Source: a virus | Direction: 5' to 3' (one strand) | Virus record (IMG/VR): IMGVR_UViG_3300022868_001144 | Coordinates: 1 to 46,610 of that record | Length of the DNA: 46,610 nucleotides | Part shown: in pieces, positions 1,665-31,910 of the stretch | Layout: the number at the start of each line of letters is the position of its first letter | How positions within the stretch are numbered: position 1 is the stretch's first letter | The notes under the pieces: model-generated | Databases searched by the model: none | The model's input: the letters and a program-made list of their open reading frames with translations, nothing else | What the model was told of the DNA's origin: nothing | Translations under genes and position numbers: made by a program

Positions 1665-2549
1665 ATGAATAAAAAAATTTGCGTAGTAATACCGAGTAGA
1701 AATGAAACTTTACTCATTCGAACAATAAACCAAGTTTTTGTTTCTGCTGAATTCCCAGATGATATTGAAATACGAGTAGTTTTAGATGGTTGGGATTTGA
1801 CTCCAAATGGTAAAATAACTCAAGAAATGGTGGATTTGTTTATACACCAAGTTAGTCTTCTTCATGAGATGGCATTACGTGATATTAGAATTAAAATCAT
1901 GCAAGTGTCGGGTGAAGCTAAGGGGGTAAGACACGCTCTAAATTGGGCTTTGGCCGAAACGGATGCAACTTATTTTATTAAGTTGGACGCACACTGTGAT
2001 TTCAGTAGAGGTTGGGATTCCGAACTAATTCGATCTTATGAACAAGAGGGACGCGAAACCTTAATTATACCACGTATTCAAAGCATGGACCCAGATACGT
2101 TTAAATATGGTGGTCGATTCTTTGATTATCTGTACATCAACAGCGACATACATCAATGTCATTGGCCTGAATATGCTGACAGACCGGAAGCACGAAAATC
2201 TGTGTGTGAAGTAATGAGTAACATCGGTGCATCATGGTTTAGTTCAGTGTCATACTGGTGGCAATTGGGTGGTCACGACGAATCGCTGTATGGGTGGGGT
2301 GAATCAGCACCAGAGACAAGCCTAAAATGTTGGTTATCTGGTGGTAGGCAGTTACTTAATAAAAATGTTTTCATTGCCCACGTCTTTCGTCGAAGATTTC
2401 CTTATTCAATCAATGCCAACGAAATAACAATGAATAAAATAAAGACGAAAGAGTATTGGTTGAAAAATGTGTATCCCATGCAGATTAGACCGATAGGGTG
2501 GTTAGTCGATAAATTCAGACCTGTACCAACTTGGAATGGTGTGATATGA
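1665..2549 (+). CDS. GT-A glycosyltransferase resembling polypeptide GalNAc-transferases
   Basis: A 294-residue protein. It begins with CVVIPSRNE (the GT2/GT27 nucleotide-sugar fold) and has GWD near residue 43. The metal-binding motif is LDAHCDFSRGWD (about 107-118), followed by GGHDESLYGWGE and a C-terminal block ending ETSLKCWLSGGRQLL with a downstream HVF. The DAHC form of DxD and the GGxDE...WG.E...S...W..GG pattern are typical of GT27-type polypeptide N-acetylgalactosaminyltransferases. It has no lectin domain and no membrane segment. It is a diverged paralogue of the protein at 3402-4301. I infer that it transfers a sugar to a protein or glycan acceptor; the donor and acceptor are not shown by sequence. 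Confidence 0.8.
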   Translation: MNKKICVVIPSRNETLLIRTINQVFVSAEFPDDIEIRVVLDGWDLTPNGKITQEMVDLFIHQVSLLHEMALRDIRIKIMQVSGEAKGVRHALNWALAETDATYFIKLDAHCDFSRGWDSELIRSYEQEGRETLIIPRIQSMDPDTFKYGGRFFDYLYINSDIHQCHWPEYADRPEARKSVCEVMSNIGASWFSSVSYWWQLGGHDESLYGWGESAPETSLKCWLSGGRQLLNKNVFIAHVFRRRFPYSINANEITMNKIKTKEYWLKNVYPMQIRPIGWLVDKFRPVPTWNGVI

Positions 2550-2740
2550 GTCTTATAACTAGTAAAAAAACTTGTCGTTGTCACACATGTGGACGTAATT
2601 TCCACTATCTTGGTATAGCTCGTCACAGAGCCATGCATCGGGATGACAGGGAAGATTGTAAAATAACATATACAGATGGGGGCACTAGTCACCATAATTT
2701 TAGTGATTCGGATGACATGAGGGAGCATTATGAATTATGA
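2546..2740 (+). CDS. Small C2H2 zinc-finger protein
   Basis: A 64-residue protein starting at ATG 2546, which overlaps the stop of the preceding transferase (ATGA). This start is preferred over the in-frame ATG at 2531. The sequence CHTCGRNFHYLGIARHRAMH is a C-x2-C-x11-H-x3-H finger with the expected central aromatic and Leu/Ile. The rest is polar and His/Asp-rich. It overlaps the next gene by four bases. It may bind nucleic acid or a protein partner; its role in the glycan block is unknown. Confidence 0.7.
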   Translation: MSLITSKKTCRCHTCGRNFHYLGIARHRAMHRDDREDCKITYTDGGTSHHNFSDSDDMREHYEL

Positions 2741-3414
2741 AAAAGATAATCCTTTATTACACTGATAACAAACTTGATCCGTTTATTATGGACCACTGTC
2801 AACAGAATCTTAAGAAAATGGCCGGTGATATATCAATTGTTTCGGTTTCTCAACAACCAATAACGTTCGGAAATATTGACATTACGGTTGGTGAGTTAGA
2901 ACGAAGCAGACATTCTATGTACAGACAAATTACAATGGGTTTGCTTGTAGTGAAAAGATTGTTCAACCCCGATGTGGTTTATATGGCAGAACACGATATA
3001 CTTTATTGTCCAAACTATTTTGATTTTGTGCCTACTGATCCAAACACGTTCTATTATTACGTTTATAAATATTGGATGAATGAACGTGGGTTTGTGAATT
3101 GTGAACAAGCTCGACATTTATCTGGTTTAACGTGTAATTTTAATCTGTTGTTATCTCATATGTTGCTTAGGTTGTATCGCATCGAAAAATTAAATATGAA
3201 AAAAGGTGGGTGGGCCAAATCTGAACCGGGCTGTAGTGATGGTGACAATACAGGTTTATGGGAAAGACGCGAACCACTGTCCAATCCTTGTGTTGACATC
3301 AGACATGGACAAAACTTAAGTGGAGTAAAACTTTTTAACGCAACACATGAACAGCAAATTGCCTTTTGGGGTGATCATACCGAATTAATGGAGCAAATGA
3401 ATTGGAAACCGTAA
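2737..3414 (+). CDS. Putative glycosyltransferase or glycan-associated protein
   Basis: A 225-residue protein starting ATG AAA AAG at an ATGA junction. KKIILYYTDNKLD at the start looks like the first Rossmann strand of a transferase, and YMAEHDILYCPNYFDFVP (about 87-104) has the form of an acidic metal-binding motif (EHD) after a hydrophobic strand. The C-terminal part is rich in aromatic and Gly residues. It sits between two GT-A enzymes and overlaps the second, so it is likely part of the same pathway. I cannot assign a GT family by eye. Confidence 0.5.
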   Translation: MKKIILYYTDNKLDPFIMDHCQQNLKKMAGDISIVSVSQQPITFGNIDITVGELERSRHSMYRQITMGLLVVKRLFNPDVVYMAEHDILYCPNYFDFVPTDPNTFYYYVYKYWMNERGFVNCEQARHLSGLTCNFNLLLSHMLLRLYRIEKLNMKKGGWAKSEPGCSDGDNTGLWERREPLSNPCVDIRHGQNLSGVKLFNATHEQQIAFWGDHTELMEQMNWKP

Positions 3415-4301
3415 GTGTAATTATACCAAGTCGTAACGAAAAGCACCTGTATAAAACTGTGTTTAACGTGATAGCCACAGCACATGAAGACATTGAAGTC
3501 ATTGTGATTTTGGATGATTGGGATTTCCTGCCTACATTTAAAACCCCTAAAGACTTGGCTAAGGTTTATTTAGATCAAAAATGTAAATTGCACGAACTTA
3601 GGGCAACGAGTTCAACACAAATTAATATAATTGAAGCTAGGGGTAATGCACTGGGTCAACGTGTAGGTATTAATCAAGCTGTGAAACGGTGTAGTGGTAA
3701 GTATTTCCTTAAGATTGATGCTCACTGTATGATGTCGGATGGTTGGGACGTACGATTTAAAGAAGCTATTGAAGATGACATGTTCATGATACCATCTATG
3801 TTTAAAATGGATGAAGAAAAATGGTGTCCGTCCGATGGTAATAAAAGTTACTACTTAGATAGGGATTTGGCTACGCGTACTGGGGAGGGGTATGGTGGAC
3901 AACATCGAGGTCTAATAAATGAAATTATGGCGTTTGGGGGTGAAGCATGGTTTGTACCAGTTGATTTATGGTGGGAATTGGGCGGCTATGATGAAAGATT
4001 AGGGAATTGGGGTAGTACCGGCACAGAATTTAGTTTGAAAGTTTGGTTGTCCGGATATCGTTTAATCAGACATGATAGTGTTTGGTGCAGTCATCTTTAT
4101 CGTGGTAAATTCCCTTATAAAGACACAGGTATGAGGGCAGCTACCACAGCTAAGATTATTAGACATCGCTATTTAACCAACGAGGGCAAGGGTCAGATTT
4201 ATCCCGTTGAATGGTTGATTAAAAAGTTTTGGCCTGTACCCACGTGGAGAGAAACAGGGGAATTAATAACACCAGAGGAAAGAGTGAGGTTTGGGGCATG
4301 A
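3402..4301 (+). CDS. Second GT-A glycosyltransferase, GT2/GT27-like
   Basis: A 299-residue protein. The start is TTG 3402 with GGAG nine bases upstream; it overlaps the preceding gene by 13 bases. It shares VIIPSRNE, DDWD, KIDAHCMMSDGWD (about 104-116), GGYDERLGNWGSTGTEFSLK and WLSGYR with the enzyme at 1665-2549. The two are clear paralogues with different acceptor-side sequence, which suggests successive transfers or two acceptors. No signal or membrane segment is seen. The donor sugar is unknown; dTDP-rhamnose made by the rml genes of this phage is one candidate. Confidence 0.8.
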   Translation: METVSVIIPSRNEKHLYKTVFNVIATAHEDIEVIVILDDWDFLPTFKTPKDLAKVYLDQKCKLHELRATSSTQINIIEARGNALGQRVGINQAVKRCSGKYFLKIDAHCMMSDGWDVRFKEAIEDDMFMIPSMFKMDEEKWCPSDGNKSYYLDRDLATRTGEGYGGQHRGLINEIMAFGGEAWFVPVDLWWELGGYDERLGNWGSTGTEFSLKVWLSGYRLIRHDSVWCSHLYRGKFPYKDTGMRAATTAKIIRHRYLTNEGKGQIYPVEWLIKKFWPVPTWRETGELITPEERVRFGA

Positions 4302-8151: not shown

Positions 8152-9077
8152 GAAAAACACCGAAAAAATCAGAAAAATCCGCCAAAGAAGCCAAAAGAGA
8201 TGCAGCTAGAAAAAGACGTTCGTGGGAGGACGATTACCCCACCATTATGCAAAAATTGACACCGGCGGAAAAGAAAATGATCACTGCCAGTAAGATCATT
8301 CTGCCGAGAGAGTACTTAAGTCCATCCGCCATCGGTACGTATATACGGTGTGGGTTACAGTTTTGGAATAGGTACATACTCGGAATCGTGAGTCCACCAT
8401 CTGTTCCACTTATTGAGGGTGGTGTGCATCACAGCGTACTTGAAACAAATAATCGACACAAGAAGAAAACGCAAGATGATTTACCTGCTAGTGAATTAAC
8501 CACTATGTTTAAAGATTTATTCAGTGACAGGAAGAAACCGATTGAAGATTGGGGTGAAGAAAATGAAAGTGGTGTTAATAATAGAGCGGTTTCTTTGCTG
8601 TCTGATTATCATGACACCTTTGCACCACGGTTGACACCCCAACTGATCGAGGCCAAAATCCAAATGGAAGTTGGACCTGTGAAAATGCTGGGTTTGCTCG
8701 ATGTGCAGGGTCAATTAACCAACTCTTTAGGTAAATCATCTAAAAATACGGTTATTGATTACAAGACCGGTAAAAAAGCGAAATCACGTGCTGAACTTGA
8801 CAGCGAAATCGGCATTGGCTTTTATGGGTGGGGAGCCACGGCCATGTTCAAGAAAAAAGTCGATGTCGGAATCTGCATGCTGAAGAAAACGAAAGTGCCG
8901 GTAGTTGATTGGATGATTGCTGATTTTGACGACCAACGTATAAAATGGTTGAGAGAAATCATCGTTCGGATTGCTAACTCTATTTCACTTGGTTCGTTTC
9001 CGCCTTGTGACCCGACATCGTGGGCCTGTTCAGAACGCTTCTGCGGGTATTTTCATTTTTGCCGGGGTAAAAAATGA
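8148..9077 (+). CDS. PD-(D/E)XK nuclease of the Cas4/RecB type
   Basis: A 309-residue protein. A basic tail is followed by LSPSAIGTYIRCGLQFWNRY (about 56-75), the usual start of this family with its first Cys. The catalytic IDYKTGKK motif is near residues 203-210, and a C-terminal Cys cluster (CDPTSWACSERFCGYFHFC) suits a 4Fe-4S site. Enzymes of this kind resect DNA ends with 5'-3' polarity and support recombination, which agrees with the recA gene just upstream. ATGA overlaps occur on both sides, so the three genes are co-translated. Confidence 0.85.
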   Translation: MRKTPKKSEKSAKEAKRDAARKRRSWEDDYPTIMQKLTPAEKKMITASKIILPREYLSPSAIGTYIRCGLQFWNRYILGIVSPPSVPLIEGGVHHSVLETNNRHKKKTQDDLPASELTTMFKDLFSDRKKPIEDWGEENESGVNNRAVSLLSDYHDTFAPRLTPQLIEAKIQMEVGPVKMLGLLDVQGQLTNSLGKSSKNTVIDYKTGKKAKSRAELDSEIGIGFYGWGATAMFKKKVDVGICMLKKTKVPVVDWMIADFDDQRIKWLREIIVRIANSISLGSFPPCDPTSWACSERFCGYFHFCRGKK

Positions 9078-9826
9078 AATCTAAAACGCGACTAATACTT
9101 GGTGACTGCTTGGAAGTTATACCTAAACTGAAAACTGGCAGTGTGGATTTGGTTCTTGTTGATTTACCATATGGTACTGCTTCTAAGGCATGTAAATGGG
9201 ATACCATTATTCCTCTTGTTCCAATGTGGGAACAGTTAAAGCAAATAATCAAACCTAATGCTGTTATTGTTATGACTGCTTCACAACCGTTTACGACTAC
9301 ACTCATATCATCTAATATGAAAATGTTTAAATATTGTTGGGTGTGGGTGAAGCCAAGGGGGACCGGGCATTTAAATGCTAAAAAAATGCCAATGAAGAAC
9401 TATGAAGATGTTGTGGTGTTTTATAGAAAAGGGTGTACATACAATCCGCAGATGATAAAGGGCAAGCCTTATAAGAATAAGGGTGGTAAGGCAGTGAAGA
9501 TCAACGAATCTGGTGTTACAATATATGGGAAGTTTAGTGCGGGTGGTGAATACAATACTGTCAACGATGGGTTGCGGTATCCTAAGAGGGTTATTTCGAT
9601 TCCAGTTATTGAAAGAGGTTCTATCCACCCAACACAAAAACCAGTTGCTTTAATGGAATACATGATTAAAACTTATACGGATGAGGGTGACACAGTGTTG
9701 GACTTCACGATGGGTTCGGGTACTACCGGAGTGGCGTGTAAAAATTTGAATCGTAATTTTATAGGTATTGAAAAAGACCCAGAGTTTTTCAAAATCGCAC
9801 AAAAGCGGGTGAGCGAAATAAAATGA
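9074..9826 (+). CDS. DNA methyltransferase, beta-class motif order
   Basis: A 250-residue protein. LGDCLEVIPKLKTGSVDLVLVDLPYGT (about 8-34) places the catalytic D-L-P-Y motif IV at the N-terminus. HPTQKPVALMEYMIK and DFTMGSGTTGVACKNLNR (about 213-230, SAM-binding motif I) are at the C-terminus. Motif IV before motif I is the beta-class order. A DPPY-like tetrad points to adenine N6 rather than cytosine N4 methylation, but N4 cannot be excluded. If the genome carries 2-aminoadenine, the natural substrate would be the N6-amino group of that base. There is no restriction partner nearby, so it acts as an orphan methylase. Confidence 0.88.
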   Translation: MKSKTRLILGDCLEVIPKLKTGSVDLVLVDLPYGTASKACKWDTIIPLVPMWEQLKQIIKPNAVIVMTASQPFTTTLISSNMKMFKYCWVWVKPRGTGHLNAKKMPMKNYEDVVVFYRKGCTYNPQMIKGKPYKNKGGKAVKINESGVTIYGKFSAGGEYNTVNDGLRYPKRVISIPVIERGSIHPTQKPVALMEYMIKTYTDEGDTVLDFTMGSGTTGVACKNLNRNFIGIEKDPEFFKIAQKRVSEIK

Positions 9827-10329
9827 AAACGGACTGGTCAAAAGTTGGCAAGAAGTCCAGACGCAAGGGTAAAGCGTTCGAGTGTGAATTAGCTCGGTTG
9901 TTTCGCAAGATTAGTGGTGACAACTGGCAAACGTCCAGAAACAGTGGACGTACTGATATTAGAGGTGACATTTACTGTGCTGATTACCCAAATGTGATGG
10001 TTGAATGCAAACACAGAAAAAGTCTTACACTAAAATCGATGCTAAATGGCACTAAAATTTACACTGATACAATTGATTATATTACAAAAGACTTTTTGAA
10101 GTATGAACATTTGGATACATTGTTGATTGTTATGAAGACTGAACACGGTATCTGGGTTGGTTCTGCGGTACGGTGCGGGAAGTCGAAAAATGTGTTATTA
10201 TGGATGAATGATTGCAATCCAAGCCCTGATGAAAATTATTTATCTATCAAGGGTGTGCCGTGGTTGTGGTTGGATAAAGAAGAAGATGCTATCAAAGGAT
10301 TTATGAAATGGCTACAAACGAGAATTTAG
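9823..10329 (+). CDS. Resolvase-like PD-(D/E)XK endonuclease
   Basis: A 168-residue protein. GKAFECELARLFRKI (about 15-29), R-x-S-GRTDIRGDI (about 41-51) and VMVECKHRKS (about 59-68) give the E...D...ExK catalytic set of the Hjc/VRR-type nucleases. Size and position in a recombination operon fit a Holliday-junction or branched-DNA endonuclease. It overlaps the upstream methylase by four bases and the downstream sigma/DUF4406 gene by 22 bases. Confidence 0.75.
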   Translation: MKTDWSKVGKKSRRKGKAFECELARLFRKISGDNWQTSRNSGRTDIRGDIYCADYPNVMVECKHRKSLTLKSMLNGTKIYTDTIDYITKDFLKYEHLDTLLIVMKTEHGIWVGSAVRCGKSKNVLLWMNDCNPSPDENYLSIKGVPWLWLDKEEDAIKGFMKWLQTRI

Positions 10330-11189
10330 AATGGAAGAATTTAGTAATAAAAGCAATAAACGGTTCTCAAGCGGGATTATTCCGAAAACTTCAACCACAA
10401 CTACACAAAATTGCTGTTGCTATTATACCTAATAAAGACATTGATGATGCAATTCAGGCGGCATACATACGGATCTGGCAACGTTTGAACGAAGTTGATC
10501 TTGGGAATCCGGCAACCATTTCTTCTTTTCTGTACAGGTTAGGCACCAATGCTATGAGGGTTGAACGAATCCGAATCATAAAGGAAGACCCAACAAAACC
10601 AGAAGCAAAACAAATAAGGAAGAAAACAAGGAATTACTACCAACTCAATAAAGACAAACTCAAAGCTCAAAGGAATGATAGATATAAGAGAAATTCTAAA
10701 GTTGAAGTAGCTCGACAACAGAGATACAATCAAAAGCGAAGAGAAAAAATCAACAGATTAAAAAACTTTTCAAATCTATGTAGGGTGTATGTGGCCGGAC
10801 CTATAAGCGGGGAACACATGAAGCAGAAAGTTGAGTGGGCCATACAAACTGCGGCTAAAATCCGAGAATACGGATATACTCCTTTTGTTCCTCACCTTTT
10901 TTATTACTGGGATGAATATTTACCTCAAACGTATGAGTATTGGATAAAGTTGGATATAGAATGGTTGGCCATTTGTGATGTTATACTACGGTTGCATGGC
11001 GAAAGTAAAGGAGCAAAAGGTGAAGTGTTGTTCGCTGAAAATATCATCAAACTACCTATTGTACACTCGATTTCCGAATTAAGGGATCGATTCCCTATGA
11101 AAGATGGTAGTGGTAACATACTTAATGTTGTGAAACCGGACGCACCTGATACCTATGAATTTCTTAAAAAGGAGTTTAACGTCAAATGA
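10308..11189 (+). CDS. Fusion of a sigma-70-like region 2 and a DUF4406-type domain
   Basis: A 293-residue protein with AAAGGA six bases before ATG 10308. Residues 1-90 (DIDDAIQAAYIRIWQRLNEV, then ISSFLYRLGTNAMRVERIR) look like sigma-70 region 2. Residues 95-155 are a very basic Arg/Lys/Asn/Gln linker. Residues 158-265 start VYVAGPISGEHM and continue through YGYTPFVPHLFYYW, WIKLDIEWLAICDVILRL and GESKGAKGEV, a DUF4406/nucleoside 2-deoxyribosyltransferase-like fold with the Y-x-x-GP phosphate site and the acidic residue of the last motif. Related enzymes (Rcl/DNPH1) hydrolyse deoxynucleoside monophosphates. I have not seen this fusion described. It overlaps the polymerase gene by four bases. 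Confidence 0.7.
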   Translation: MATNENLEWKNLVIKAINGSQAGLFRKLQPQLHKIAVAIIPNKDIDDAIQAAYIRIWQRLNEVDLGNPATISSFLYRLGTNAMRVERIRIIKEDPTKPEAKQIRKKTRNYYQLNKDKLKAQRNDRYKRNSKVEVARQQRYNQKRREKINRLKNFSNLCRVYVAGPISGEHMKQKVEWAIQTAAKIREYGYTPFVPHLFYYWDEYLPQTYEYWIKLDIEWLAICDVILRLHGESKGAKGEVLFAENIIKLPIVHSISELRDRFPMKDGSGNILNVVKPDAPDTYEFLKKEFNVK

Positions 11190-13606
11190 TAAAAACACCT
11201 TGTGAGAAATGTAAAAGATGCTTGGCTGGTGACGATGGTTACAAAATACCAGCCTTTATTAATTCTAAAAATCCGGATATTTTGGTTTTGAGTGGTCAAC
11301 CCGGATTGAGTGAATTAAAAGCTAATGAATCTCATGTTAGTGTATCAGGTCAACAAGTGCGGGCGATACTCAAAGATATAACAGATAATTACGTCCTTGA
11401 AACTGTGGTGAAATGTGTTAGTGATAAAAAACCCACTAAACGAGAAATTAAGTTGTGTCGTGAAAACTGGATGGGGTTGGTTAGAAAATACAAACCTAAA
11501 GTTATTGTTACATTGGGGGCTTATGCCGCACAAGCAATTTCCGTTGAAAAAATAATAAAAACATCGAGAGCGGGAAAAGTGGGGAAGATGGACGTGGGTG
11601 GTGAACGTGTTTTAATTGTTCACAACTATGATCCTGCTTATGTGATGCATGCCAGTTCTAGACCAGATTTTAACGCGATACAAAGTAAATGGTTTGATGT
11701 GTGGGACCGAGTATCTGAACTGATTAAAGATGGTGGGATGAAATTACCAGAGGTTGAACAATTAACAGACTATTCTTTAATTAAAGCTCACCTTGAGGAA
11801 CTACTCAAGTACGATGGTAAAATAGCGTATGATTACGAAACATGGGGGAACGTGGATGCAAGAAGACCAGAACTGAACAAAGAATTTAAAATTTTATGTA
11901 TTGGTGTTGCTACTAAGTGGAGTGAAGTTTCTTTTCTGCTGGATGACAGTAGGATGAAGTGGAAGCGTGGTGAAAAACGAGAAATTACAAGGTTGTGGAA
12001 GAAGATAATAAAAAGTAAAGATCGTATAGCACAAAATGCGAAGTATGAACATAAATGTAATTTCCTTAGGTTTGGTCATTCCACGGTTTTAAAAGACACG
12101 ATGTTGCAAATGAGTAGGATTGATGAAACGGCAGAATGTAATCTTGAAGCAATAGCGACGTGGGCCAAAATTCCGTGGTCGTTTTACAAATCTTACTATG
12201 AAGACGTATCACAACGGCCAGAAGAAACGTCAATTAAACAACTGTTACATTATAATGGTCTAGATGCTCTTGCTACATTATTGGCTAGTGAAGAATTGGA
12301 AAAAGAGCTTAAAAAAAGAAAACTTATGAACGTTGTTTCCATGCAAGAAACGTATGCTTATCACTTAGCACAAATGGAAATAACCGGTATGCATGTTGAT
12401 GCTAAAAAGATTGTTAGTTTACGAAAAGAAATAAATAAAAAACTGGTGGAAATGAATAATTGGTTTTATTCTAGACCAGAAGTGTTGAATGTTCGTATGT
12501 GGGCTGAAAATAACATCAAATCTTTCAAAAAGGGAAATCCTTTCAATCCAAAAAGTCCTGTACAGATAAAGCAGTTATGCTTGAATGAGTTGAAATTGAA
12601 AATTGCTCCGGATAAAAATGGTAAATATTCTTTCGATAAAGATCATTTAGCACCTTTTATTGAAAAAAACCAAATTGTTAAGAACATGAATGAGGTTAGG
12701 TCTTTGTCATCTATGTTAACTGGGTTTTTAAATAAATGGGATAGCTATGTTGGTCCTAGTGGTTGTGTTCACACGCAGTTTAATCAAACTACAGTTGTTA
12801 CAGGTCGATTATCATCATCAAGTCCGAACTTGCAAAATATACCAAGAGATTCGGTTATTAAAAAAGCGTTTACTTCTAGATTTGATGGTGGATTTTTAAT
12901 AAATTCTGATTTCAGACAGTTGGAGCCTAATATTTTGGCTGGGTGGTCAAAAGATAAATTGATGTGTGAAGCTTTGAATGATGGACTTGATATTCATAAA
13001 TGGGTATCAGCACAGATTTATGATATAGACTATAATGATGTAACAGACGAACAAAGAAATCATGGCAAACGGATGAATTTGGGTCAGATGTATGGTCAAA
13101 CGGAGCATGGTCTGTCTAAACAGACTAATCTTACATTAAGTCAAGCTAAAGATCTAATGGATGCATACAATAAGAAATTTCCCGGAATATTAAAGTTTAG
13201 ACACGAACTCCATAAACACGCGATTCATAATGGTTATGTAGAAGACCTGTTTGGTTCACGTAGATACCTGCCGGGTGCACAAAGTTCGGATAGGTGGATT
13301 ATGGAGGGGGCATTACGTCAAGCCGGTAACGCCCCTATTCAATCAACTGGTAACCAGTTTTGTTTGATTAGTATGTGTCATTGTAGGGAAAGTTTACAAC
13401 GTAAAAAACTTAAAGCGGTGGTTATTTGCACGGTGCATGACAGTCTTATAATAGATTGTGCACCAGAATGCGTGGAAGAAACTAGTAAAATTGTGGAATA
13501 TTCTATGTTGGTTCACAACAAAGCACCTTATTGGGCTGATTCACCAGTCAAAATGAAAGTGGATATGAAGATGGGACCGGATTTGTACGAAATGAAAGCG
13601 AGTTAA
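11186..13606 (+). CDS. Family A DNA polymerase with N-terminal uracil-DNA-glycosylase-like domain (DpoZ candidate)
   Basis: An 806-residue protein. Residues 1-175 resemble family 4 UDG: Cys6/9/12 and Cys77/91 for an Fe-S cluster, LSGQPGLSE (35-43) as the first active-site motif and NYDPAYVM (147-154) as the second. The 3'-5' exonuclease follows, with DYE (216-218), N284/E288 and Y356/D360. The polymerase has TGRLSSSSPNLQNIP (539-553), motif A SDFRQLEP (574-581), motif B RNHGKRMNLGQMYG (624-637) and motif C VHDS (750-753). Motif C has Ser in place of the usual Glu, and motif B has Leu at the position normally Phe/Tyr. There is no 5' nuclease domain. A co-occurring PurZ suggests it is DpoZ-like. 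Confidence 0.9.
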   Translation: MIKTPCEKCKRCLAGDDGYKIPAFINSKNPDILVLSGQPGLSELKANESHVSVSGQQVRAILKDITDNYVLETVVKCVSDKKPTKREIKLCRENWMGLVRKYKPKVIVTLGAYAAQAISVEKIIKTSRAGKVGKMDVGGERVLIVHNYDPAYVMHASSRPDFNAIQSKWFDVWDRVSELIKDGGMKLPEVEQLTDYSLIKAHLEELLKYDGKIAYDYETWGNVDARRPELNKEFKILCIGVATKWSEVSFLLDDSRMKWKRGEKREITRLWKKIIKSKDRIAQNAKYEHKCNFLRFGHSTVLKDTMLQMSRIDETAECNLEAIATWAKIPWSFYKSYYEDVSQRPEETSIKQLLHYNGLDALATLLASEELEKELKKRKLMNVVSMQETYAYHLAQMEITGMHVDAKKIVSLRKEINKKLVEMNNWFYSRPEVLNVRMWAENNIKSFKKGNPFNPKSPVQIKQLCLNELKLKIAPDKNGKYSFDKDHLAPFIEKNQIVKNMNEVRSLSSMLTGFLNKWDSYVGPSGCVHTQFNQTTVVTGRLSSSSPNLQNIPRDSVIKKAFTSRFDGGFLINSDFRQLEPNILAGWSKDKLMCEALNDGLDIHKWVSAQIYDIDYNDVTDEQRNHGKRMNLGQMYGQTEHGLSKQTNLTLSQAKDLMDAYNKKFPGILKFRHELHKHAIHNGYVEDLFGSRRYLPGAQSSDRWIMEGALRQAGNAPIQSTGNQFCLISMCHCRESLQRKKLKAVVICTVHDSLIIDCAPECVEETSKIVEYSMLVHNKAPYWADSPVKMKVDMKMGPDLYEMKAS

Positions 13607-15361: not shown

Positions 15362-16585
15362 ATGATGATTAAACAGAATCGTGTAAATGTGGTGATTGAT
15401 GGTCAGTGGGGTAGCACTGGTAAGGGTAAACTTGCTGGGTACTTATACAACCGTCACCCCGAAATCGATGTGTCCATAAGTGATTTTATGCCAAACTCTG
15501 GTCACACATACGTTGATGATTATGGCGAGGCTCTTGTGACTAAGATGCTTCCTACCGGTGCGTTGATTAAAACCGTGAAACATGTAGTTATCGGACCTTA
15601 TGCGGTGATCGACATACCCCGGTTGATGCAAGAAATCGAAATGGCCGAGGATTACCGGGATGAAAAATGTGGACGAGACTGGTTACTTCACATTCACCCT
15701 AATGCTGGTGTTTTGCGTCCTGCTGACGTGAAAGCTGAAACCAAGCTAAATCCGATTGCGTCAACGATGACCGGTGGTATGGAAGCTACTATGAGAAAAA
15801 TGCAACGTAATCCACGACATAAAGTTGCTATAGCTGAACAAGCACCAGAATTGAAGAATTTTATCATGTATGATTCTTTAGGTGTAATGAAACTGATGGA
15901 TTTTGACAGTGGTGCTCACACAGCACTGTTGGAAATGGCACAGGGTTTTGATTTAAGTCTTAATTACGGTACTAAATGGCCGTATGTTACCAGTCGTGAT
16001 TGTCTGATTGGTAGAGGTTTGGACAATGCTGGTGTTCCTGTTAAGTTCATAGGTTCCATTATTGCTTCACTACGTACCTTACCAATTCGAGTTGGTAGTA
16101 CGGTAGGTGGTTACAGTGGGCCTTGTTACCCGGATCAAACCGAGTTGACTTGGGACGAAGTAAGTGTAACTGCTGGTAAACCAACGATGGAATTAACCAC
16201 AGTCACCAAACGTGTAAGACGTATATTCACTTTCAGTTATTTACAACTGGAAAGATTTTTATGTATAGTACGTCCGGATTATGCGTTTCTCAATTTTTGT
16301 AATTACTTGGCTGACGAAGAATGTGATGATTTCATTAATAACGTAGCTATAGGGTGTGATCAAAAGGATTGTACTTTATCGTTGTTGGGGTATGGAGCTA
16401 AAAATGACGAAATGATCAATATTCTTGATGGTGAAAGATACACGGGTCAACAACCTGAAGAATGTTATCCTCCAGATGATGAAGCACCGGAACCCACTCC
16501 AACTCCGACACCTACACCTACTCTAACACCCGAACCTACTAAAACGGATGATGGTAAAGGAGGTGATTCTGTTGAAAGTGATTAG
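15362..16585 (+). CDS. purZ: PurZ: 2-amino-dAMP (N6-succinyl) synthase of the adenylosuccinate synthetase family, with a C-terminal Pro-Thr tail
   Basis: A 407-residue protein with GTGGAG upstream. NVVIDGQWGSTGKGKLAGYL (9-28) aligns with the PurA start GQWGDEGKGK but has Ser18-Thr19 in place of the catalytic Asp-Glu. Loss of that Asp is the known mark of PurZ, which condenses dGMP with aspartate to give the precursor of 2-aminoadenine deoxynucleotide. The body retains NSGHTYV (45-51), SASTMTGG-like STMTGGM and GYSGPCYPDQTE. Its length without the tail (~365) fits phage PurZ. Residues after ~365 are a Pro-Thr repeat with an acidic end, not part of the enzyme fold. The stop overlaps the NMP kinase gene by 14 bases. 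Confidence 0.88.
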   Translation: MMIKQNRVNVVIDGQWGSTGKGKLAGYLYNRHPEIDVSISDFMPNSGHTYVDDYGEALVTKMLPTGALIKTVKHVVIGPYAVIDIPRLMQEIEMAEDYRDEKCGRDWLLHIHPNAGVLRPADVKAETKLNPIASTMTGGMEATMRKMQRNPRHKVAIAEQAPELKNFIMYDSLGVMKLMDFDSGAHTALLEMAQGFDLSLNYGTKWPYVTSRDCLIGRGLDNAGVPVKFIGSIIASLRTLPIRVGSTVGGYSGPCYPDQTELTWDEVSVTAGKPTMELTTVTKRVRRIFTFSYLQLERFLCIVRPDYAFLNFCNYLADEECDDFINNVAIGCDQKDCTLSLLGYGAKNDEMINILDGERYTGQQPEECYPPDDEAPEPTPTPTPTPTLTPEPTKTDDGKGGDSVESD

Positions 16586-17138
16586 TGTTATCGGCACTAC
16601 TGGTTGTGGTAAAACTCATCAATGTGCTGAATTAGTAGAAGAACTAACATCTGTAGCGGAAAATAAACCTCCATCGGAGGGAAATTTACCCATGGTGCTT
16701 AGTTTGGGTAAGATTTTTCGTGGTATGTTTGGTGATGACTTTTTTACTACACAATCTAATCCATCCACATCGGAAGCGACTGAACTTTTAGCACGTGCGT
16801 TAATTCATTATTCAGTTCAAATCAGTTCTCGATATAATAAGGACTTGATTATCGATGGTTTCCCACGTAGTGTCAGTCAACTTGAATACCTGATGGACAC
16901 GGTTAAAAATCTTTCTAGAAGTGGGCTTGAAATCAGGCTAATATGTTCTAATGAAGAAGAACAGTGGAAAAGATTAAAAAACCGAGAAGAGCATCTGGGT
17001 TGTGAATTAGACAGAGAATTTTATCTACGAAAGATGATAACTGACGCAACACAAATTGCGGCTTTGATTTCAGTGTATAAACAACGAATAGGTACGGATA
17101 GATTTTTTACTTACACGGAGGTTGACAATCTTGGATGA
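16572..17138 (+). CDS. Nucleoside-monophosphate kinase, adenylate-kinase-like
   Basis: A 188-residue protein. TTG 16572 is chosen because a near-perfect site AAAGGAGGTGAT ends about five bases upstream; an ATG at 16548 precedes that site. VISVIGTTGCGKTHQ (3-17) is the P-loop, and DLIIDGFPRSVSQLEYL (about 95-111) is the adenylate-kinase NMP-binding signature. RLKNREEHLGCELDREFY fits a short lid. It overlaps purZ upstream and the dUTPase gene downstream. I infer that it phosphorylates a purine monophosphate needed for DNA synthesis, possibly 2-amino-dAMP, which known Z phages leave to host kinases. Confidence 0.78.
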   Translation: MKVISVIGTTGCGKTHQCAELVEELTSVAENKPPSEGNLPMVLSLGKIFRGMFGDDFFTTQSNPSTSEATELLARALIHYSVQISSRYNKDLIIDGFPRSVSQLEYLMDTVKNLSRSGLEIRLICSNEEEQWKRLKNREEHLGCELDREFYLRKMITDATQIAALISVYKQRIGTDRFFTYTEVDNLG

Positions 17139-17598
17139 TCTGCAAATAATTTATGATAGTGATATAGTGGCGAGAAAAGCCGAAATTAAACACGCTAAAG
17201 ATGGAGATTGTGGTTTTGATTTGTATAATGCATCGGATTCGACAGTAATTGTTGGTCCTTACTGCAGTAAAAGAATCAATACTGGTATAAGGATGAAGAT
17301 ACCGGATGGTTACTGTGGTATTTTAAGATCTCGATCCTCAACATTCACGCGTAAAGGTTTGTTTGTTGTTACTGGGGTCATTGACAGTGGTTATACTGGT
17401 CCCTTGTACATCATAGTGTGGAACCCAGTGTTACAAGGTTCTAATGAAACGATGCCCATAACACCGATTTTGATTAAACCGTGGGAAAGAGTTTCACAGT
17501 TATTGATTTTACCTGTACCGAAAGTAAAAGTAGTTCGTGTGTTTCAATTACCGGAAACAGAACGAGGTCAAAGCGGTTTTGGCTCTACAGGTGTTTAA
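17131..17598 (+). CDS. dut: dUTPase
   Basis: A 155-residue protein from TTG 17131, nine bases after GGAGG; the TTG at 17122 abuts that site. All five trimeric dUTPase motifs are visible: CGFDLYN (motif 1), LRSRSST (2), GVIDSGYTGPLYIIVWN (3), WERVSQLLILP (4) and ERGQSGFGSTGV (5). It converts dUTP to dUMP, keeping uracil out of DNA and feeding dTMP synthesis. It complements the UDG-like domain on the phage polymerase. A terminator follows. Confidence 0.93.
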   Translation: MDDLQIIYDSDIVARKAEIKHAKDGDCGFDLYNASDSTVIVGPYCSKRINTGIRMKIPDGYCGILRSRSSTFTRKGLFVVTGVIDSGYTGPLYIIVWNPVLQGSNETMPITPILIKPWERVSQLLILPVPKVKVVRVFQLPETERGQSGFGSTGV

Positions 17599-22310: not shown

Positions 22311-22895
22311 ATGGATTTATTGTCTATCAATAAGCAGTATGGGGGTATTCTGTGGAGTTGTGCTAAACGGTATCATGCTGGGATTTGGGGAATTGAGGAC
22401 GTTTATCAGCAGGTACTCATTACAGTGTATACGGCCATGCAAGATGGAAAGCTTCCAACTGACATATCAAGCAAATCTCAAAAGAGGGTAAAAAACTTTG
22501 TGATTTGTAGGTCGATTGATTTGGTTCGTAAAGAAAATCGCAGAAGAACCGAAGTAGTGGACCCGACTGACGTTCATTCTAAAGTATCACAGGACCAAAT
22601 TGAGTCCCAGACTGAAGAATTAATGAGTTTTTTATCAAAGCACTTGACACCACCACAACTAGAAATCATCATGGAATTTGTGCAACCGTCCCCTGATGTA
22701 CAAGGGTACGCGTGGAATCGGATGATCGAGGCTCAGCGAGAACGAAAAAAAGGGAAGTTGAAAATGGGAGTGAAAGAGGCGGTAGTTCGTAAGGTGGATA
22801 TAGCCAAACATCATGGAGTGTCACCGGCCACTGTTACTAGAATTGTGGCGATAACCAAGAAAATTTTCACAACAGAGAAAGGAAGTTTAGTGTGA
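22311..22895 (+). CDS. Sigma-70-like RNA polymerase factor
   Basis: A 194-residue protein with GAAAGGAT upstream of ATG 22311. ILWSCAKRYHAGIWGIEDVYQQVLITVY (about 13-40) followed by NFVICRSIDLVRKENRRR (about 62-79) fits sigma region 2. The C-terminus KVDIAKHHGVSPATVTRIV (about 162-180) is a helix-turn-helix of region 4 type. It could direct host RNA polymerase to phage promoters, and the five-copy motif in this genome is an obvious candidate target. Confidence 0.7.
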   Translation: MDLLSINKQYGGILWSCAKRYHAGIWGIEDVYQQVLITVYTAMQDGKLPTDISSKSQKRVKNFVICRSIDLVRKENRRRTEVVDPTDVHSKVSQDQIESQTEELMSFLSKHLTPPQLEIIMEFVQPSPDVQGYAWNRMIEAQRERKKGKLKMGVKEAVVRKVDIAKHHGVSPATVTRIVAITKKIFTTEKGSLV

Positions 22896-23085: not shown

Positions 23086-23811
23086 GTGGATTTGAAAGGG
23101 GTTATACTAGCTGGCGGCACGGGTTCTCGGCTGGAGTCGCTTACGAAAGTCACTAATAAGCATCTTCTTCCGGTGGGTCGTAAGCCGATGATTTATTATG
23201 CTGTTGAGAAGTTCGTCTCGGCTGGGATCGATGAAATATTGATTGTTACCGGTGTTGAGCACATGGGCGACGTAGTGAATTTGCTAGGTTCTGGCAAAGA
23301 TTTCGGGTGTCGATTCACCTATAAAGTGCAGGATGAGGCTGGCGGGATTGCCCAAGCGTTGGGGTTAGCCAAGGATTTCTCCAACTGCAATCCGATAGTG
23401 GTGATTCTTGGCGATAATATATTCAAGGCAGGACTAAGGGAGTATGTGGACAAGTTCAAGTCGCAGAAGAGCGGTGCCAGACTGTTGCTTATTCAGCATG
23501 ATAATCCGCAACGGTTTGGTGTCGCAGAAGTTTGTGACGGCAGGGTTGTCGGTATCGAGGAGAAGCCACAAAAGCCTAAGTCTAATTATGTTGTGACCGG
23601 TATATATTTTTATGATACAAATGTTTTTGACATTATCGCTACACTTAAGCCGTCAGGCAGAGGTGAGTTGGAAATTACTGATGTCAATAATGCTTATATA
23701 ATGAAGAACCAGTTGTGTTATGATATTCTCGACGGCTGGTGGACCGATGCTGGCACATTCGAATCTCTATACAAAGCTAATGCGATGGTATTAAATAACC
23801 CCCCACAATGA
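23086..23811 (+). CDS. rmlA: Glucose-1-phosphate thymidylyltransferase
   Basis: A 241-residue protein from GTG 23086 with GGGAAAGGG upstream. GVILAGGTGSRLESLTKVTN (4-23) is the nucleotidyltransferase signature with the triphosphate-binding Arg, followed by KHLLPVGRKPMIYYAV. VVILGDNIFK holds the metal-binding Asp. Length fits the short, non-allosteric form rather than the ~290-residue enzyme. It makes dTDP-glucose from glucose-1-phosphate and dTTP. The four rml genes use GAG, CTG and CGG more than their neighbours and are visibly richer in G+C, so they look transferred from a bacterium. Confidence 0.93.
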   Translation: MDLKGVILAGGTGSRLESLTKVTNKHLLPVGRKPMIYYAVEKFVSAGIDEILIVTGVEHMGDVVNLLGSGKDFGCRFTYKVQDEAGGIAQALGLAKDFSNCNPIVVILGDNIFKAGLREYVDKFKSQKSGARLLLIQHDNPQRFGVAEVCDGRVVGIEEKPQKPKSNYVVTGIYFYDTNVFDIIATLKPSGRGELEITDVNNAYIMKNQLCYDILDGWWTDAGTFESLYKANAMVLNNPPQ

Positions 23812-23819
23812 GGATGAAA

Positions 23820-24347
23820 ATGGGAAAGATATTGCCTCTAAAGAGTGTTTTAATAGATGATGGATTAGTTGTTCGTAGTTCGTGTGAGCTTCTTATAGAA
23901 GGGGTGGGTGTGCGTCGTTGTAAGGTTATCCCTGATGAGCGGGGCAGGCTTGGCGAGATACTTCGTGGGGACGATGATTTTTTTAAGAAGTTCGGCCAAG
24001 TTTATTTTACCACTACATATCCGGGTGTTGTCAAGGCGTGGCATTATCACAAGAAACAAACAGACAATTTTTATGTTGTCAAGGGCACAATAAAGGTTGC
24101 ACTTTATGACGATAGGGAAAACTCATTGACGCAAGGCGTGGTAAATGAGTTTTATCTTGGCGAACATTGTCCGGGATTGGTTCATATACCGCCCGGTGTC
24201 CAGCACGGCTGGGTGTGCGTCAGTCAAGTCGAGGCGTACATTGTAAATGTGGTTTCGGAAATGTATAATTATGTTGAGCCGGACGAGTTTCGCAGCGATC
24301 CGCATGATAATCATATTCCGTATAAATGGATACGTAATGATGGGTGA
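23820..24347 (+). CDS. rmlC: dTDP-4-dehydrorhamnose 3,5-epimerase
   Basis: A 175-residue protein. ATG 23820 is preferred because GAGG lies six bases upstream; an earlier ATG at 23808 overlaps the rmlA stop without a site. The cupin core shows PDERGRLGEILRGDD, VYFTTTYPGVVKAWHYHKKQ (catalytic His) and HCPGLVHIPPGVQHGWVCVS. It epimerises dTDP-4-keto-6-deoxyglucose at C3 and C5. Gene order A-C-D-B keeps all enzymes of the pathway together. Confidence 0.9.
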   Translation: MGKILPLKSVLIDDGLVVRSSCELLIEGVGVRRCKVIPDERGRLGEILRGDDDFFKKFGQVYFTTTYPGVVKAWHYHKKQTDNFYVVKGTIKVALYDDRENSLTQGVVNEFYLGEHCPGLVHIPPGVQHGWVCVSQVEAYIVNVVSEMYNYVEPDEFRSDPHDNHIPYKWIRNDG

Positions 24348-24360
24348 GGGAGGTAGGTAG

Positions 24361-25197
24361 ATGGAACGGGTAGCGATATTAGGTGGTGGGGGGATGCTTG
24401 GCACGGATTTGGTTGGTGTTTGTGGTCGGCGTGGGCTTGAATTTGTTGTTTATGATTTACCGGAGTTTGATATTACCAAGCCTGAACATGTTCATCAAGT
24501 TGTTAAGGATTCTGATGTTGTTGTGAATTGTGCGGCATATACTAATGTTGATCAGGCTGAACTTGAGTTTGATCTTGCTTATCAGGTTAATGCCGAGGCG
24601 GTTGGGGTATTGGGAGAAACCGCTAAAGAAGCTGGCAAATGGGTGTTACATATCAGCACTGATTTTGTGTTTGACGGCAAAAGCGACAAGCCCTATCGTG
24701 AGACAGACAAAGCTAATCCGATAAACACATACGGTAAAAGCAAACTGGCGGGTGAGAAGCTTTTGGCTAAAAGCGGGTGCCGACATTGTATAGTCCGGGT
24801 TGAGTGGACATACGGGTTGGCTGGTCGGAATTTTGTGACTAAGCTTTTAGGTTATGGTGAGACGAACAAGGATATTCGAGTTGTCGATGACCAGTCAGGG
24901 TCGCCGACGGCAACGGTTGAGGTTGCTGATGCTGTTTGTGAACTTTTGCGGATTAGACCTGAAGGAGTATATCATTTTGCCTCGGCTGGATATACCAGTC
25001 GATTTGAAGTGGCGAAATTTATATTTGAGAAAGTTGGTATGGCGGTGAATTTATCAAAGTGCAAAAGTAGTGATTATGAAAGTCTGGCGGCACGGCCATT
25101 GAATAGTCGATTTGATTGTGGTAAAATTCAGGGGCTGCTTAATAAACCGATCGAGCGTTGGGAGTTGCCGTTGGGACGTTTTTTGGAGTTGTTATGA
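24361..25197 (+). CDS. rmlD: dTDP-4-dehydrorhamnose reductase
   Basis: A 278-residue short-chain dehydrogenase with GGGAGG upstream. VAILGGGGMLGTDLVGVC (4-21) binds NADPH, VVVNCAAYTNVDQAE (about 53-67) matches the RmlD family exactly in spacing, and ISTDFVFDG with Y-G-K-S-K-L-A-G-E gives the catalytic Thr/Tyr/Lys. SGCRHCIVRVEWTYG fits the substrate lobe. It carries out the last step to dTDP-L-rhamnose. Confidence 0.93.
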   Translation: MERVAILGGGGMLGTDLVGVCGRRGLEFVVYDLPEFDITKPEHVHQVVKDSDVVVNCAAYTNVDQAELEFDLAYQVNAEAVGVLGETAKEAGKWVLHISTDFVFDGKSDKPYRETDKANPINTYGKSKLAGEKLLAKSGCRHCIVRVEWTYGLAGRNFVTKLLGYGETNKDIRVVDDQSGSPTATVEVADAVCELLRIRPEGVYHFASAGYTSRFEVAKFIFEKVGMAVNLSKCKSSDYESLAARPLNSRFDCGKIQGLLNKPIERWELPLGRFLELL

Positions 25198-26171
25198 AAA
25201 GTATATTAGTGACAGGTGGTGCAGGTTTTATTGGTAGTAATTTTGTTCGGATGGTGCTGGCCGAGCATAGCGATTGTTTTGTGGTGAATCTGGACAAGCT
25301 GACATATGCCGGTAATCTTAATAATCTGGCTGGTTTTCTTGAGCATCCCAGCCATAAATTTATTAAAGGTGATATATGCGATTATGATTTGGTGTCACAA
25401 ATTATAGAAAGTCACGATATAGGTGCTATTGTCAATTTTGCTGCTGAGAGCCATGTTGATCGCTCGATCACGGGTCCTAAGATTTTTATTGAGACGAATG
25501 TTACCGGCACATTGATGCTGCTCGAGGCGGCACGTGAAAAAGGTATAGAGCGGTTCGTCCAAATATCGACCGATGAGGTTTATGGTGAGCTTGGCCCGAC
25601 AGGTAGATTCAGCGAGCAGACGGCATTGAGTCCGAATTCGCCGTACTCGGCAAGTAAAACGGCAGCGGATCATCTTGTGGGTGCTTACGGACACACCTGG
25701 GGACTTAATTATAATATTACACGTTGCTCGAATAATTATGGGCCATATCAGTTTCCGGAAAAGATGATACCGCTGATGATAAATAACGCGTTGCACGATA
25801 AAGAATTGCCAGTTTATGGTGACGGGCTGCATGTTCGAGACTGGATATATGTGTATGATCATTGCACAGCGGTGTGGAAAGTTTTAACCGAAGCGACTCC
25901 CGGTGAGATATATAATATCGGTGGTTGTAACGAGAAGGCCAATCTTGAGGTTGTTGAGTTGATACTGGATCGGCTCGATAAGCCGAAATCGCTTATCAGA
26001 CATGTAACCGACAGGCCCGGGCACGATAGAAGGTATGCTATGAACGCCGGTAAGATAATGGAAGAGTTGGGCTGGCGGCCTTTAGTTAGTTTCGAAGAAG
26101 GGATCAACAAGACGATAGCGTGGTATCTGGGAAATCGAGATTGGTTGGCGGATGTCGTCCGTGGAGGGTGA
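25194..26171 (+). CDS. rmlB: dTDP-glucose 4,6-dehydratase
   Basis: A 325-residue protein from ATG 25194, overlapping the rmlD stop (ATGA); an upstream in-frame start lacks a site. ILVTGGAGFIGSNFVRMVL (4-22) binds NAD, NFAAESHVDRSI is the family motif, and ISTDEVYGELG plus YSASKTAADHLV carry the catalytic Thr-Asp-Glu and Tyr-x3-Lys. RCSNNYGPYQFPEKMIPL is also diagnostic. The C-terminus ends VVRGG, and the stop codon is the first triplet of direct repeat R1, so the cassette's edge may coincide with it. Confidence 0.94.
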   Translation: MKSILVTGGAGFIGSNFVRMVLAEHSDCFVVNLDKLTYAGNLNNLAGFLEHPSHKFIKGDICDYDLVSQIIESHDIGAIVNFAAESHVDRSITGPKIFIETNVTGTLMLLEAAREKGIERFVQISTDEVYGELGPTGRFSEQTALSPNSPYSASKTAADHLVGAYGHTWGLNYNITRCSNNYGPYQFPEKMIPLMINNALHDKELPVYGDGLHVRDWIYVYDHCTAVWKVLTEATPGEIYNIGGCNEKANLEVVELILDRLDKPKSLIRHVTDRPGHDRRYAMNAGKIMEELGWRPLVSFEEGINKTIAWYLGNRDWLADVVRGG

Positions 26172-30506: not shown

Positions 30507-31910
30507 GTGGCAGAAAAAGAAGCAAATGTAAATGCTCCTCCTTTAGGTGAAAAAACCCTACGTCAAGTGGCGGGTATTTTCTCTTCTATATGGGACGCAG
30601 TGGACGTACCAAGAGGAAGATTCAACACTTACCGTAGAATGAGAGCCAATCCAACTGTAGCCTTGGCCAGAACTGTTGCTACTGCTCCTGTTAAGATGGC
30701 GGCTTATTCTGTGGAAAAGGATGATGAAACAAGTGAAGAGATACAAATCTTCATTAAAAATCAAATTGACAGATTATGGCCACAACTAATTGAAGACTTG
30801 ATGTGGTCTTTAGATTACGGATTTCAAAGTTTTGAAAAGGTGTGGGAAGTAAAACCAGTTGACAGTGTATTAAGGCTGGTGTTGGGTAGGTTGAAAGCAT
30901 TAGCACCGGACCAAGTGGAGGTTCGGGCTGATAACAAGTTTGGTAACTTTGTCGGTATAACACAAGACGGTGTTGAACTAAACGTGGATAAATGCTTTCA
31001 TTATGTGTACGATGGTGAACCGGGTAATTATTATGGCAGAAGCAGACATGAGAATATCAGGGAATTTGCGTGGTTTCCGTGGACCCAAGTTGCACTTAAA
31101 CAGTTGAAATATATGGCGAAGATCGCTGGTGTAATACCAATGATAAAGTACCCAATAGGTAAAAGCAGAGATGCCACGGGTGCGGAAACCACAAATTTTG
31201 AAATAGCAGAAGCAATCCTTAAATCTCTTGGTTCCGGTAAAGGTGTTGCAATGCCGCAAGAATTAGCGGCGTGGGCAAGAGATATGTCAAGACAAGGAAT
31301 CGATCCTGAAGCATATGCGGCATGGCATATTAGTTTCTTGGAAACAAAAGGTCAACATGGCAAGGGTTTTGTTGATTCATTGCGTCATTACGAATCGTTG
31401 ATACTACGTGGATGGTTAGTGCCGGAAAGGGCTGCAACAGAGGGTCAATTTGGCACAAAAGCAGAAGCTAGTACCCATGGTAGTGTAGCATTAGTCACAT
31501 CGGACGAATTGCACAAAAATATTCTACGTGCCGTCAATCAAGATATCATCAATCCATTGTTAAGGTTCAACTTTGGTGAAGATACACAAGATACGGTTTA
31601 TTTGAAACAAGGTGGGCTTGATCCTGTCACCAAGGCTTACTACCGTGGGATAGTAGAAAAAGTCCTTACAGCACCGTCTAATGTGGATATGTTCCAGACG
31701 TGGTTGGACGTGGACAACATGCTTGAATTAGCTGAACTACCAAAGGCACAAGAAAACGTGAATTTGGTTATAAAAGAAGATGAAGATGATGAAGATGATG
31801 ACAACCCAAATCCGGGTGATGAAGATAAAGACAAAGATGAAGATAATAAACCGTTGAGCAAAAAACAAATACAAACGGTAAAGGAAATTTATGCCGCGTT
31901 TGGCTCGTAA
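30507..31910 (+). CDS. Portal protein, DUF935/Mu gp29-like
   Basis: A 467-residue protein from GTG 30507 with AAAGGAAAAAGAG upstream. YRRMRANPTVALARTVATAP (about 43-62), WSLDYGFQSFEKVWEVKPVD (about 104-123) and a helical stem region match the DUF935 portal family of Mu-like phages. The C-terminus is an Asp/Glu-rich stretch (about 423-450) followed by a basic end. It forms the dodecameric DNA channel and connects TerL to the head. It overlaps the gpF-like gene by 20 bases. Confidence 0.85.
   Translation: MAEKEANVNAPPLGEKTLRQVAGIFSSIWDAVDVPRGRFNTYRRMRANPTVALARTVATAPVKMAAYSVEKDDETSEEIQIFIKNQIDRLWPQLIEDLMWSLDYGFQSFEKVWEVKPVDSVLRLVLGRLKALAPDQVEVRADNKFGNFVGITQDGVELNVDKCFHYVYDGEPGNYYGRSRHENIREFAWFPWTQVALKQLKYMAKIAGVIPMIKYPIGKSRDATGAETTNFEIAEAILKSLGSGKGVAMPQELAAWARDMSRQGIDPEAYAAWHISFLETKGQHGKGFVDSLRHYESLILRGWLVPERAATEGQFGTKAEASTHGSVALVTSDELHKNILRAVNQDIINPLLRFNFGEDTQDTVYLKQGGLDPVTKAYYRGIVEKVLTAPSNVDMFQTWLDVDNMLELAELPKAQENVNLVIKEDEDDEDDDNPNPGDEDKDKDEDNKPLSKKQIQTVKEIYAAFGS

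Follow-up and report, generated by a model that had tools for sequence, protein, structure and literature searches.

A sigma region 2-DUF4406 fusion protein in a probable PurZ phage genome with no detectable DatZ

The window analysed here, an entire IMG/VR record of 46,610 bases (one contig, which may be incomplete), encodes a protein in which a sigma region 2 is joined through a basic linker to a DUF4406 domain of the nucleoside deoxyribosyltransferase (NDT) fold (Table 1). Judging by the clade of its PurZ sequence and by the Ser found in place of Asp13, the genome is probably that of a PurZ phage, one of a group in which the adenine of the DNA is probably replaced. The reading favoured, tentatively and at somewhat less than an even chance, is that the fusion belongs to the DNPH1/DUF4406 type of NDT-superfamily (deoxy)nucleoside 5'-monophosphate N-glycosidases, has a sigma region 2 as its carrier, and acts in a chain of dATP removal. 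In the literature, judged by titles and the start of abstracts, no fusion of a sigma domain with a nucleotide-hydrolysing enzyme was found, and if the reading is right this would be, as far as found, the first.

Table 1. Features of the window that bear on the fusion protein
Feature	Position	Strand	Evidence and remarks
PDDEXK_15 nuclease, upstream neighbour	9823..10329	+	PF24608 1.9e-10; order kept in L015, L228, L018, L023
Sigma region 2 - basic linker - DUF4406/NDT fusion, 293 aa	10308..11189	+	single open frame
ECF-type sigma region 2, residues 1-92	10308..10583	+	PF04542 4.1e-8; VIA-align Z 12.7 to sigmaE
Basic linker, residues 93-153	10584..10766	+	two predicted long helices, 98-128 and 130-153
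DUF4406/NDT-fold domain, residues 154-261	10767..11090	+	predicted Tyr161, Asp216, Glu239; Ser233, Pro195
DNA polymerase A with N-terminal family-4-like UDG domain	11186..13606	+	PF00476 6.6e-84, PF03167 1.1e-13
PurZ (2-aminoadenylosuccinate synthetase)	15362..16585	+	phrog_1211 6.2e-59; Ser at PurA Asp13 position
Adenylate-kinase-like NMP kinase	16548..17138	+	in 27/31 clade loci, 0/62 other loci
dUTPase, PF00692 family, candidate dATP/dGTP pyrophosphatase in DatZ's place	17122..17598	+	PF00692 4.5e-20
Second sigma-like protein, C-terminal HTH	22311..22895	+	NCBIfam sigma70-ECF residues 9-180, E 6.5e-4, below cut-off

Architecture, predicted structure and origin of the fusion

Profile searches bear out the order of parts that the first-pass annotation had described, namely a sigma region 2, a basic linker and a DUF4406 domain: Pfam Sigma70_r2 matches residues 24-84 (E 4.1e-8, 33.3 bits, above its cut-off of 24), DUF4406 matches residues 159-247 (E 2.5e-7, 31.4 bits, above its cut-off of 22), the quoted motifs VYVAGPISG and GESKGAKGEV are both present, and phrog_355 ('nucleoside 2-deoxyribosyltransferase') matches residues 125-245 (E 1.3e-17). 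The frame overlaps the PDDEXK_15 gene upstream by 22 bases and the polA gene downstream by 4 bases. Region 2 is like that of ECF sigma factors (E. coli sigmaE) in fold and profile, but Pfam gave no Sigma70_r4 match in the fusion, whose C-terminal half is DUF4406, and full membership among the sigma factors was rejected because region 4 is missing.

An AlphaFold model of the fusion was obtained from an 18-row alignment, A8 (the window protein, its L015 and L228 relatives, two sigma region 2 pieces and 13 phage DUF4406 proteins), which replaced an alignment, A7, that had put the HTH part of two sigma rows onto the NDT domain; a model from two rows (mean pLDDT 44) was set aside. With a mean pLDDT of 87.4 and a pTM of 0.58, both domains are well predicted, but their relative placement is not certain. 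The model shows the two domains in the predicted folds: residues 1-93 align with E. coli sigmaE (1or7; VIA-align Z 12.7, 91 residues, 2.6 Å), and the NDT part (about residues 150-264) with 1t1j (Z 14.2), an Enterococcus NDT (Z 12.2), MilB (4jel, Z 11.0) and DNPH1 (4kxl, Z 10.9, 97 residues, 2.3 Å). Foldseek agrees with VIA-align on the model, with weak E-values (best 9.9e-4). Comparison with DNPH1 had been suggested in the first-pass annotation, whose view that DUF4406 resembles NDT enzymes and Rcl/DNPH1 is upheld by this fold, by the phrog_355 match and by the alignment of Tyr161, Asp216 and Glu239. The model is also matched over about 150 columns by two BFVD entries named 'dATP/dGTP diphosphohydrolase N-terminal domain-containing' (A0A6J5LQ71 and A0A6J5S4N9), hinting at NDT-pyrophosphatase fusions elsewhere among phage proteins.

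The same fusion occurs in two further contigs, L015 (1333-2223, 49% identical to the window protein; record G002, 46,797 bases) and L228 (2045-2944, 46% identical; record G078, 44,572 bases). Both have the order PDDEXK_15-like gene, fusion, then polA-UDG, SSB-like gene, PurZ, NMP kinase, dUTPase, DnaB and primase, the neighbours being named by similarity to the window's genes. The fusion is therefore real, and the explanation that two genes were wrongly joined in assembly, refuted by the presence of the fusion beside the same neighbours in three separate contigs, retains a negligible probability. In searches of viral_contigs, an NDT-only alignment of 3 rows led to one contig and a wider alignment to at least 19 contigs; the whole fusion protein as a single query had no match in viral_contigs, and the sigma half alone had none, at E up to 1, among 50,697 records of phages. 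In the record of L228, a 208-residue frame without a Pfam match (L247:3375-4001) lies between the fusion gene and polA.

In L018, L023 and L040, the interval between the PDDEXK gene and polA holds a sigma-like gene with a C-terminal HTH-like stretch and without an NDT domain. The L018 and L023 proteins align with the window's region 2, their C-terminal halves not being matched as region 4 by Pfam, and the sigma70-ECF model spans residues 35-182 of the L040 protein, below its cut-off. Since relatives have a two-region sigma-like gene at the same place, the NDT domain appears, from these sequences, to stand where a small sigma-like factor, encoded between the PDDEXK nuclease and polA, formerly had its region 4, which would be how the fusion gene arose.

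A Nei-Gojobori comparison of L015 with L228 (own script) puts dN/dS at 0.16 in the sigma part, 0.35 in the linker, 0.19 in the NDT part and 0.13 in the tail, showing that the sigma and NDT domains are both under purifying selection and that the linker is least constrained. It is quite improbable that the sigma part is a leftover from the domain replacement, aiding only folding, solubility or dimer formation and idle at RNA polymerase: the region 4 of ordinary sigma factors is indeed missing and the linker varies, but the sigma part changes no faster than the enzyme part and its Sigma70_r2-type profile match is kept in all three fusion genomes. Improbable too is that the fusion works as a sigma-like factor with the NDT domain as a nucleotide sensor, region 2 and the linker opening promoters on a change in the dNMP pool. 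The origin of the gene as a sigma factor, the retention of the fusion in three genomes and the selection on a conserved region 2 would suit such a role. Against it stand the loss of region 4, the catalytic residues, which show no decay, and the presence in the genome of a second sigma-like gene (Table 1). The latter, with similar genes in G078 and G005, is perhaps the ordinary two-region sigma of the phage.

Predicted active site of the NDT domain and comparison with characterised enzymes

Tyr161, Asp216 and Glu239 align in sequence with the DNPH1 triad (Y24, D80, E104), and Ser233, six residues before Glu239, falls at the phosphate-pocket Ser position of NMP N-glycosidases, represented by S98 of DNPH1, which lies six before E104 and holds the 5'-phosphate (PMC10603095), S87 of rat Rcl, six before E93 (PMC3834327), and S97 of MilB, six before E103 (PMC10603095). 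The Tyr, Ser and Glu are invariant across the 19 DUF4406-type rows of alignment A9, and the top solved structures matched by the A9 profile are a CMP N-glycosidase (6.7e-8), the Trypanosoma brucei NDT (9.5e-6) and BlsM (2.3e-5), so that the CMP N-glycosidase outranks the nucleoside transferases among the PDB matches. The triad, Ser233 and these profile matches give the domain the appearance of a working NMP glycosidase, its probable enzyme class.

DNPH1/Rcl (2'-deoxynucleoside 5'-phosphate N-hydrolase) has the same fold, the Tyr/Asp/Glu triad and the Ser at Glu minus 6, but is about 15-21% identical in structural alignments, has a second phosphate Ser (S128') that is not traceable in the window domain, and differs from a phage protein with an extra sigma half. 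The CMP N-glycosidases MilB and BlsM, among the best profile matches (6.7e-8 and 2.3e-5), share the S-x-G-x3-E motif but have CMP/hmCMP as substrates. Stand-alone phage DUF4406 proteins (phrog_355) belong to the same domain family and are 26-39% identical to the window domain, but are without the sigma half, and 17/17 of their tested records are without PurZ.

DmtZ, a member of the NDT family that both hydrolyses dAMP and moves deoxyribose 5-phosphate onto Z (PMC12884076), is the nearest precedent in context: the window domain likewise occurs in a DatZ-less PurZ-family phage with a dUTPase homologue, and DmtZ too is found fused, in Wayne to DutZ, whereas the NDT domain of the window is fused to sigma region 2. 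Tyr6, Glu103 and Pro57 of DmtZ correspond to Tyr161, Glu239 and Pro195, a Pro equivalent to the last being common to most DUF4406 proteins. The differences are several. Asn77, invariant in 5/5 DmtZ-like rows, is Asp216 in the window, and N77D cuts kcat/Km about 100-fold in Ghobes DmtZ (PMC12884076); Asp12, needed for Ghobes DmtZ activity and proposed as the source of its dAMP preference (PMC12884076), is Ser167 in an ungapped match of the Tyr loop, L034 and L069 also being without the Asp. No match to Trp124 was seen by eye in the window, an HMM of DmtZ-like proteins fails to find the window domain, and the phage is of PurZ type, not PurZ0 type. Orthology with DmtZ was rejected because Asn77 and Asp12 are not kept, and since their positions hold Asp216 and Ser167, dAMP specificity is not readable from the sequence; a MAFFT alignment of the whole fusion with DmtZ, in which unrelated parts were paired, was discarded. 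The window domain may act as the hydrolase function of DmtZ does, as a DNPH1-like enzyme rather than a DmtZ.

The DmtZ-like rows that share Tyr6, Pro57 and Asn77 are those of Ghobes, Wayne, L034, L069 and Bacillus phage vB_BpsS-140. The L034 (12099-12542) and L069 (4244-4738) proteins, with the triad Asn, are encoded shortly after PurZ and a dUTPase_2-like gene, the phages being of PurZ and not PurZ0 type. In Bacillus phage vB_BpsS-140, which carries PurZ and, over the part read, lacks DatZ, a 'hypothetical protein' (AZS49232.1; L011:534-1010, minus strand) matches the DmtZ HMM.

DatZ, dUTPases and NDT genes among PurZ relatives

PurZ phages mostly carry DatZ together with MazZ-type enzymes, and PurZ0 phages carry DutZ, a dUTPase homologue hydrolysing dATP and dGTP, mostly along with DmtZ (PMC12884076). 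The first-pass annotation had found no HD-type protein and proposed a genome-wide HMM search for DatZ, which agrees with it: PF12917, on which PMC12884076 relies for DatZ, has 0 matches in the 46,610-base record (the phiVC8 positive control was found), and Pfam scans of 50 window ORFs gave none of the HD/DatZ families. DatZ is absent from both fusion records searched (G000, that of the window, and G002), the read of L228 covering its first 15 kb.

The PurZ of the window matches the NCBIfam PurZ model at 2e-66 (224 bits, under its cut-off of 300). In a tree of 93 rows (80 viral loci, 12 others and the window), the loci being the best 80 of 567 relatives in viral_contigs, hence not a random sample, with the 79 loci matched in genome_contigs left out, it sits within a 31-row clade (100/97) that lies with PurZ and apart from the PurZ0 sequences of Wayne and Ghobes. 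Counted in the fetched loci of this clade, which reach up to 10 kb to each side of PurZ and are not whole genomes, DatZ and MazZ are each found in 0/31, a dUTPase in 13/31 and a second, unrelated pyrophosphatase in 9/31; the one of these nine that was tested, from L034, is a dUTPase_2 (PF08761, 1.1e-13, Pfam). PurZ is followed by the adenylate-kinase-like NMP kinase and the dUTPase in the window (16548-17598) and in L015, L228, L003, L017-L020 and L023, and nine relatives have a dUTPase_2-like protein in the place of the dUTPase, in some of them continuous with the kinase in a single long frame. That two unrelated dUTPase families fill one slot suggests a common dNTP target. A strict alternation of DatZ with dUTPase (21 and 16 of 51 records, overlap 0) was given up: in L071 and L074 DatZ and a dUTPase occur together downstream of PurZ, so that the two are not strict alternatives. 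The UDG domain of the polA product matches NCBIfam UDG family 4 at 2.5e-11, below cut-off, and polymerases of clade relatives resemble this family-4-like UDG polymerase at their N-termini.

The records of 82 of the 93 rows (all but L004, L006-L008, L010, L012, L014, L065, L081, L085 and L094) were searched whole for PF14359 and PF05014 at E limits of 0.01 and 0.05, several matches lying below the curated cut-off. An NDT-family match was found in 12/38 records without DatZ versus 0/44 with it (Fisher 3.3e-5, uncorrected for relatedness), L015 and L013 being scored negative in these counts as both families miss them. The contrast is 11/34 versus 0/44 when rows with identical PurZ are removed, and 10/25 versus 0/24 in records of at least 30 kb (p 6e-4, uncorrected for relatedness); 26 of the 38 DatZ-less records have no detectable NDT gene. 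On the tree, NDT changes at least 10 times (L015 and L013 counted positive) and DatZ 5 times, too few independent changes to give a paired tree-aware test power, and the contrast is confounded by the relatedness of the rows.

The NDT genes are of several kinds: fused to sigma region 2 in the kin of the window, next to dUTPase_2 (L034) or a relative of it (L069) on the downstream side of PurZ, and far from PurZ in L021, L024 and L026, a DUF4406 gene standing far from purZ in records other than those of the window's close kin. The match in L219 (the record of L023) is without the S-x-G-x3-E motif and may be of another nature.

These surveys bear on an alternative that is unlikely but carries real weight, in which the NDT domain, as an NMP/dNMP glycosidase or as a nucleotide-binding domain, has a job apart from Z, such as the cleavage of pyrimidine or damaged nucleotides or the clearing of nucleotides that the host uses in signalling or defence. 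The 18 records tested from the DUF4406 search include only one with PurZ, that of L228, so DUF4406 is generally no Z marker; the top profile match is a CMP glycosidase, and the specificity residues of DmtZ are not kept. On the other side, the sigma fusion is so far confined to PurZ genomes (3/3), both of those searched for DatZ are without it, and several kinds of NDT genes recur in DatZ-less PurZ records.

Proposed place in dATP removal

Under the favoured reading of a dNMP glycosidase in a dATP-removal chain, the dUTPase beside purZ would, like DutZ, convert dATP (and dGTP) to dAMP (and dGMP). The NDT domain would then cleave dAMP or a similar purine dNMP to the free base and deoxyribose 5-phosphate through a covalent intermediate at Glu239, so that kinases could not rebuild dATP, and dGMP would pass through PurZ and the kinase to dZTP. 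The domain is placed after the dUTPase because the NDT-superfamily hydrolases characterised so far act on monophosphates (PMC12884076).

The first-pass annotation had proposed the fusion as a possible replacement for DatZ. The common purpose of keeping dATP out of the pool is possible, DatZ is missing, NDT genes are confined to DatZ-less PurZ records of the sample, and DmtZ provides a precedent (PMC12884076), but DatZ is an HD-family dATP triphosphohydrolase working on the triphosphate, with no profile match in the window. The removal of dATP itself is better assigned to the dUTPase, since DutZ does this and a dUTPase or dUTPase_2-like protein fills the slot across the clade; on this analysis the dUTPase is a better candidate than the NDT domain for that step, and the replacement idea is partly supported.

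For the sigma half we infer that region 2 and the basic linker most likely hold the protein on RNA polymerase or DNA, the least certain step of the proposal. A bolder version, speculative and rather unlikely, is that a phage sigma factor traded region 4, which reads the promoter, for a nucleotide glycosidase, and that the resulting protein either ties the breakdown of dAMP to RNA polymerase or to promoter DNA, or makes transcription respond to the dAMP/dZMP pool; if true, it would link the A-to-Z switch of the nucleotide pool with the transcription programme. If the favoured chain is true, PurZ-type phages without DatZ and MazZ would have a further solution to dATP in a dUTPase plus a dNMP glycosidase, a logic described so far, as far as found, only for PurZ0 phages.

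Other genes of the window include an N6_N4_Mtase-type DNA methylase (9074-9826), in what is presumed to be a Z phage, two family-2 glycosyltransferases (1665-4301), and a nucleotidyl transferase, an epimerase, an RmlD-like protein and a dehydratase in a row (23086-26171), resembling a dTDP-rhamnose set. A MuF-like head protein (31891-33477) has a C-terminal ADP-ribosyltransferase-like match (PF03496 6.3e-4, below cut-off).
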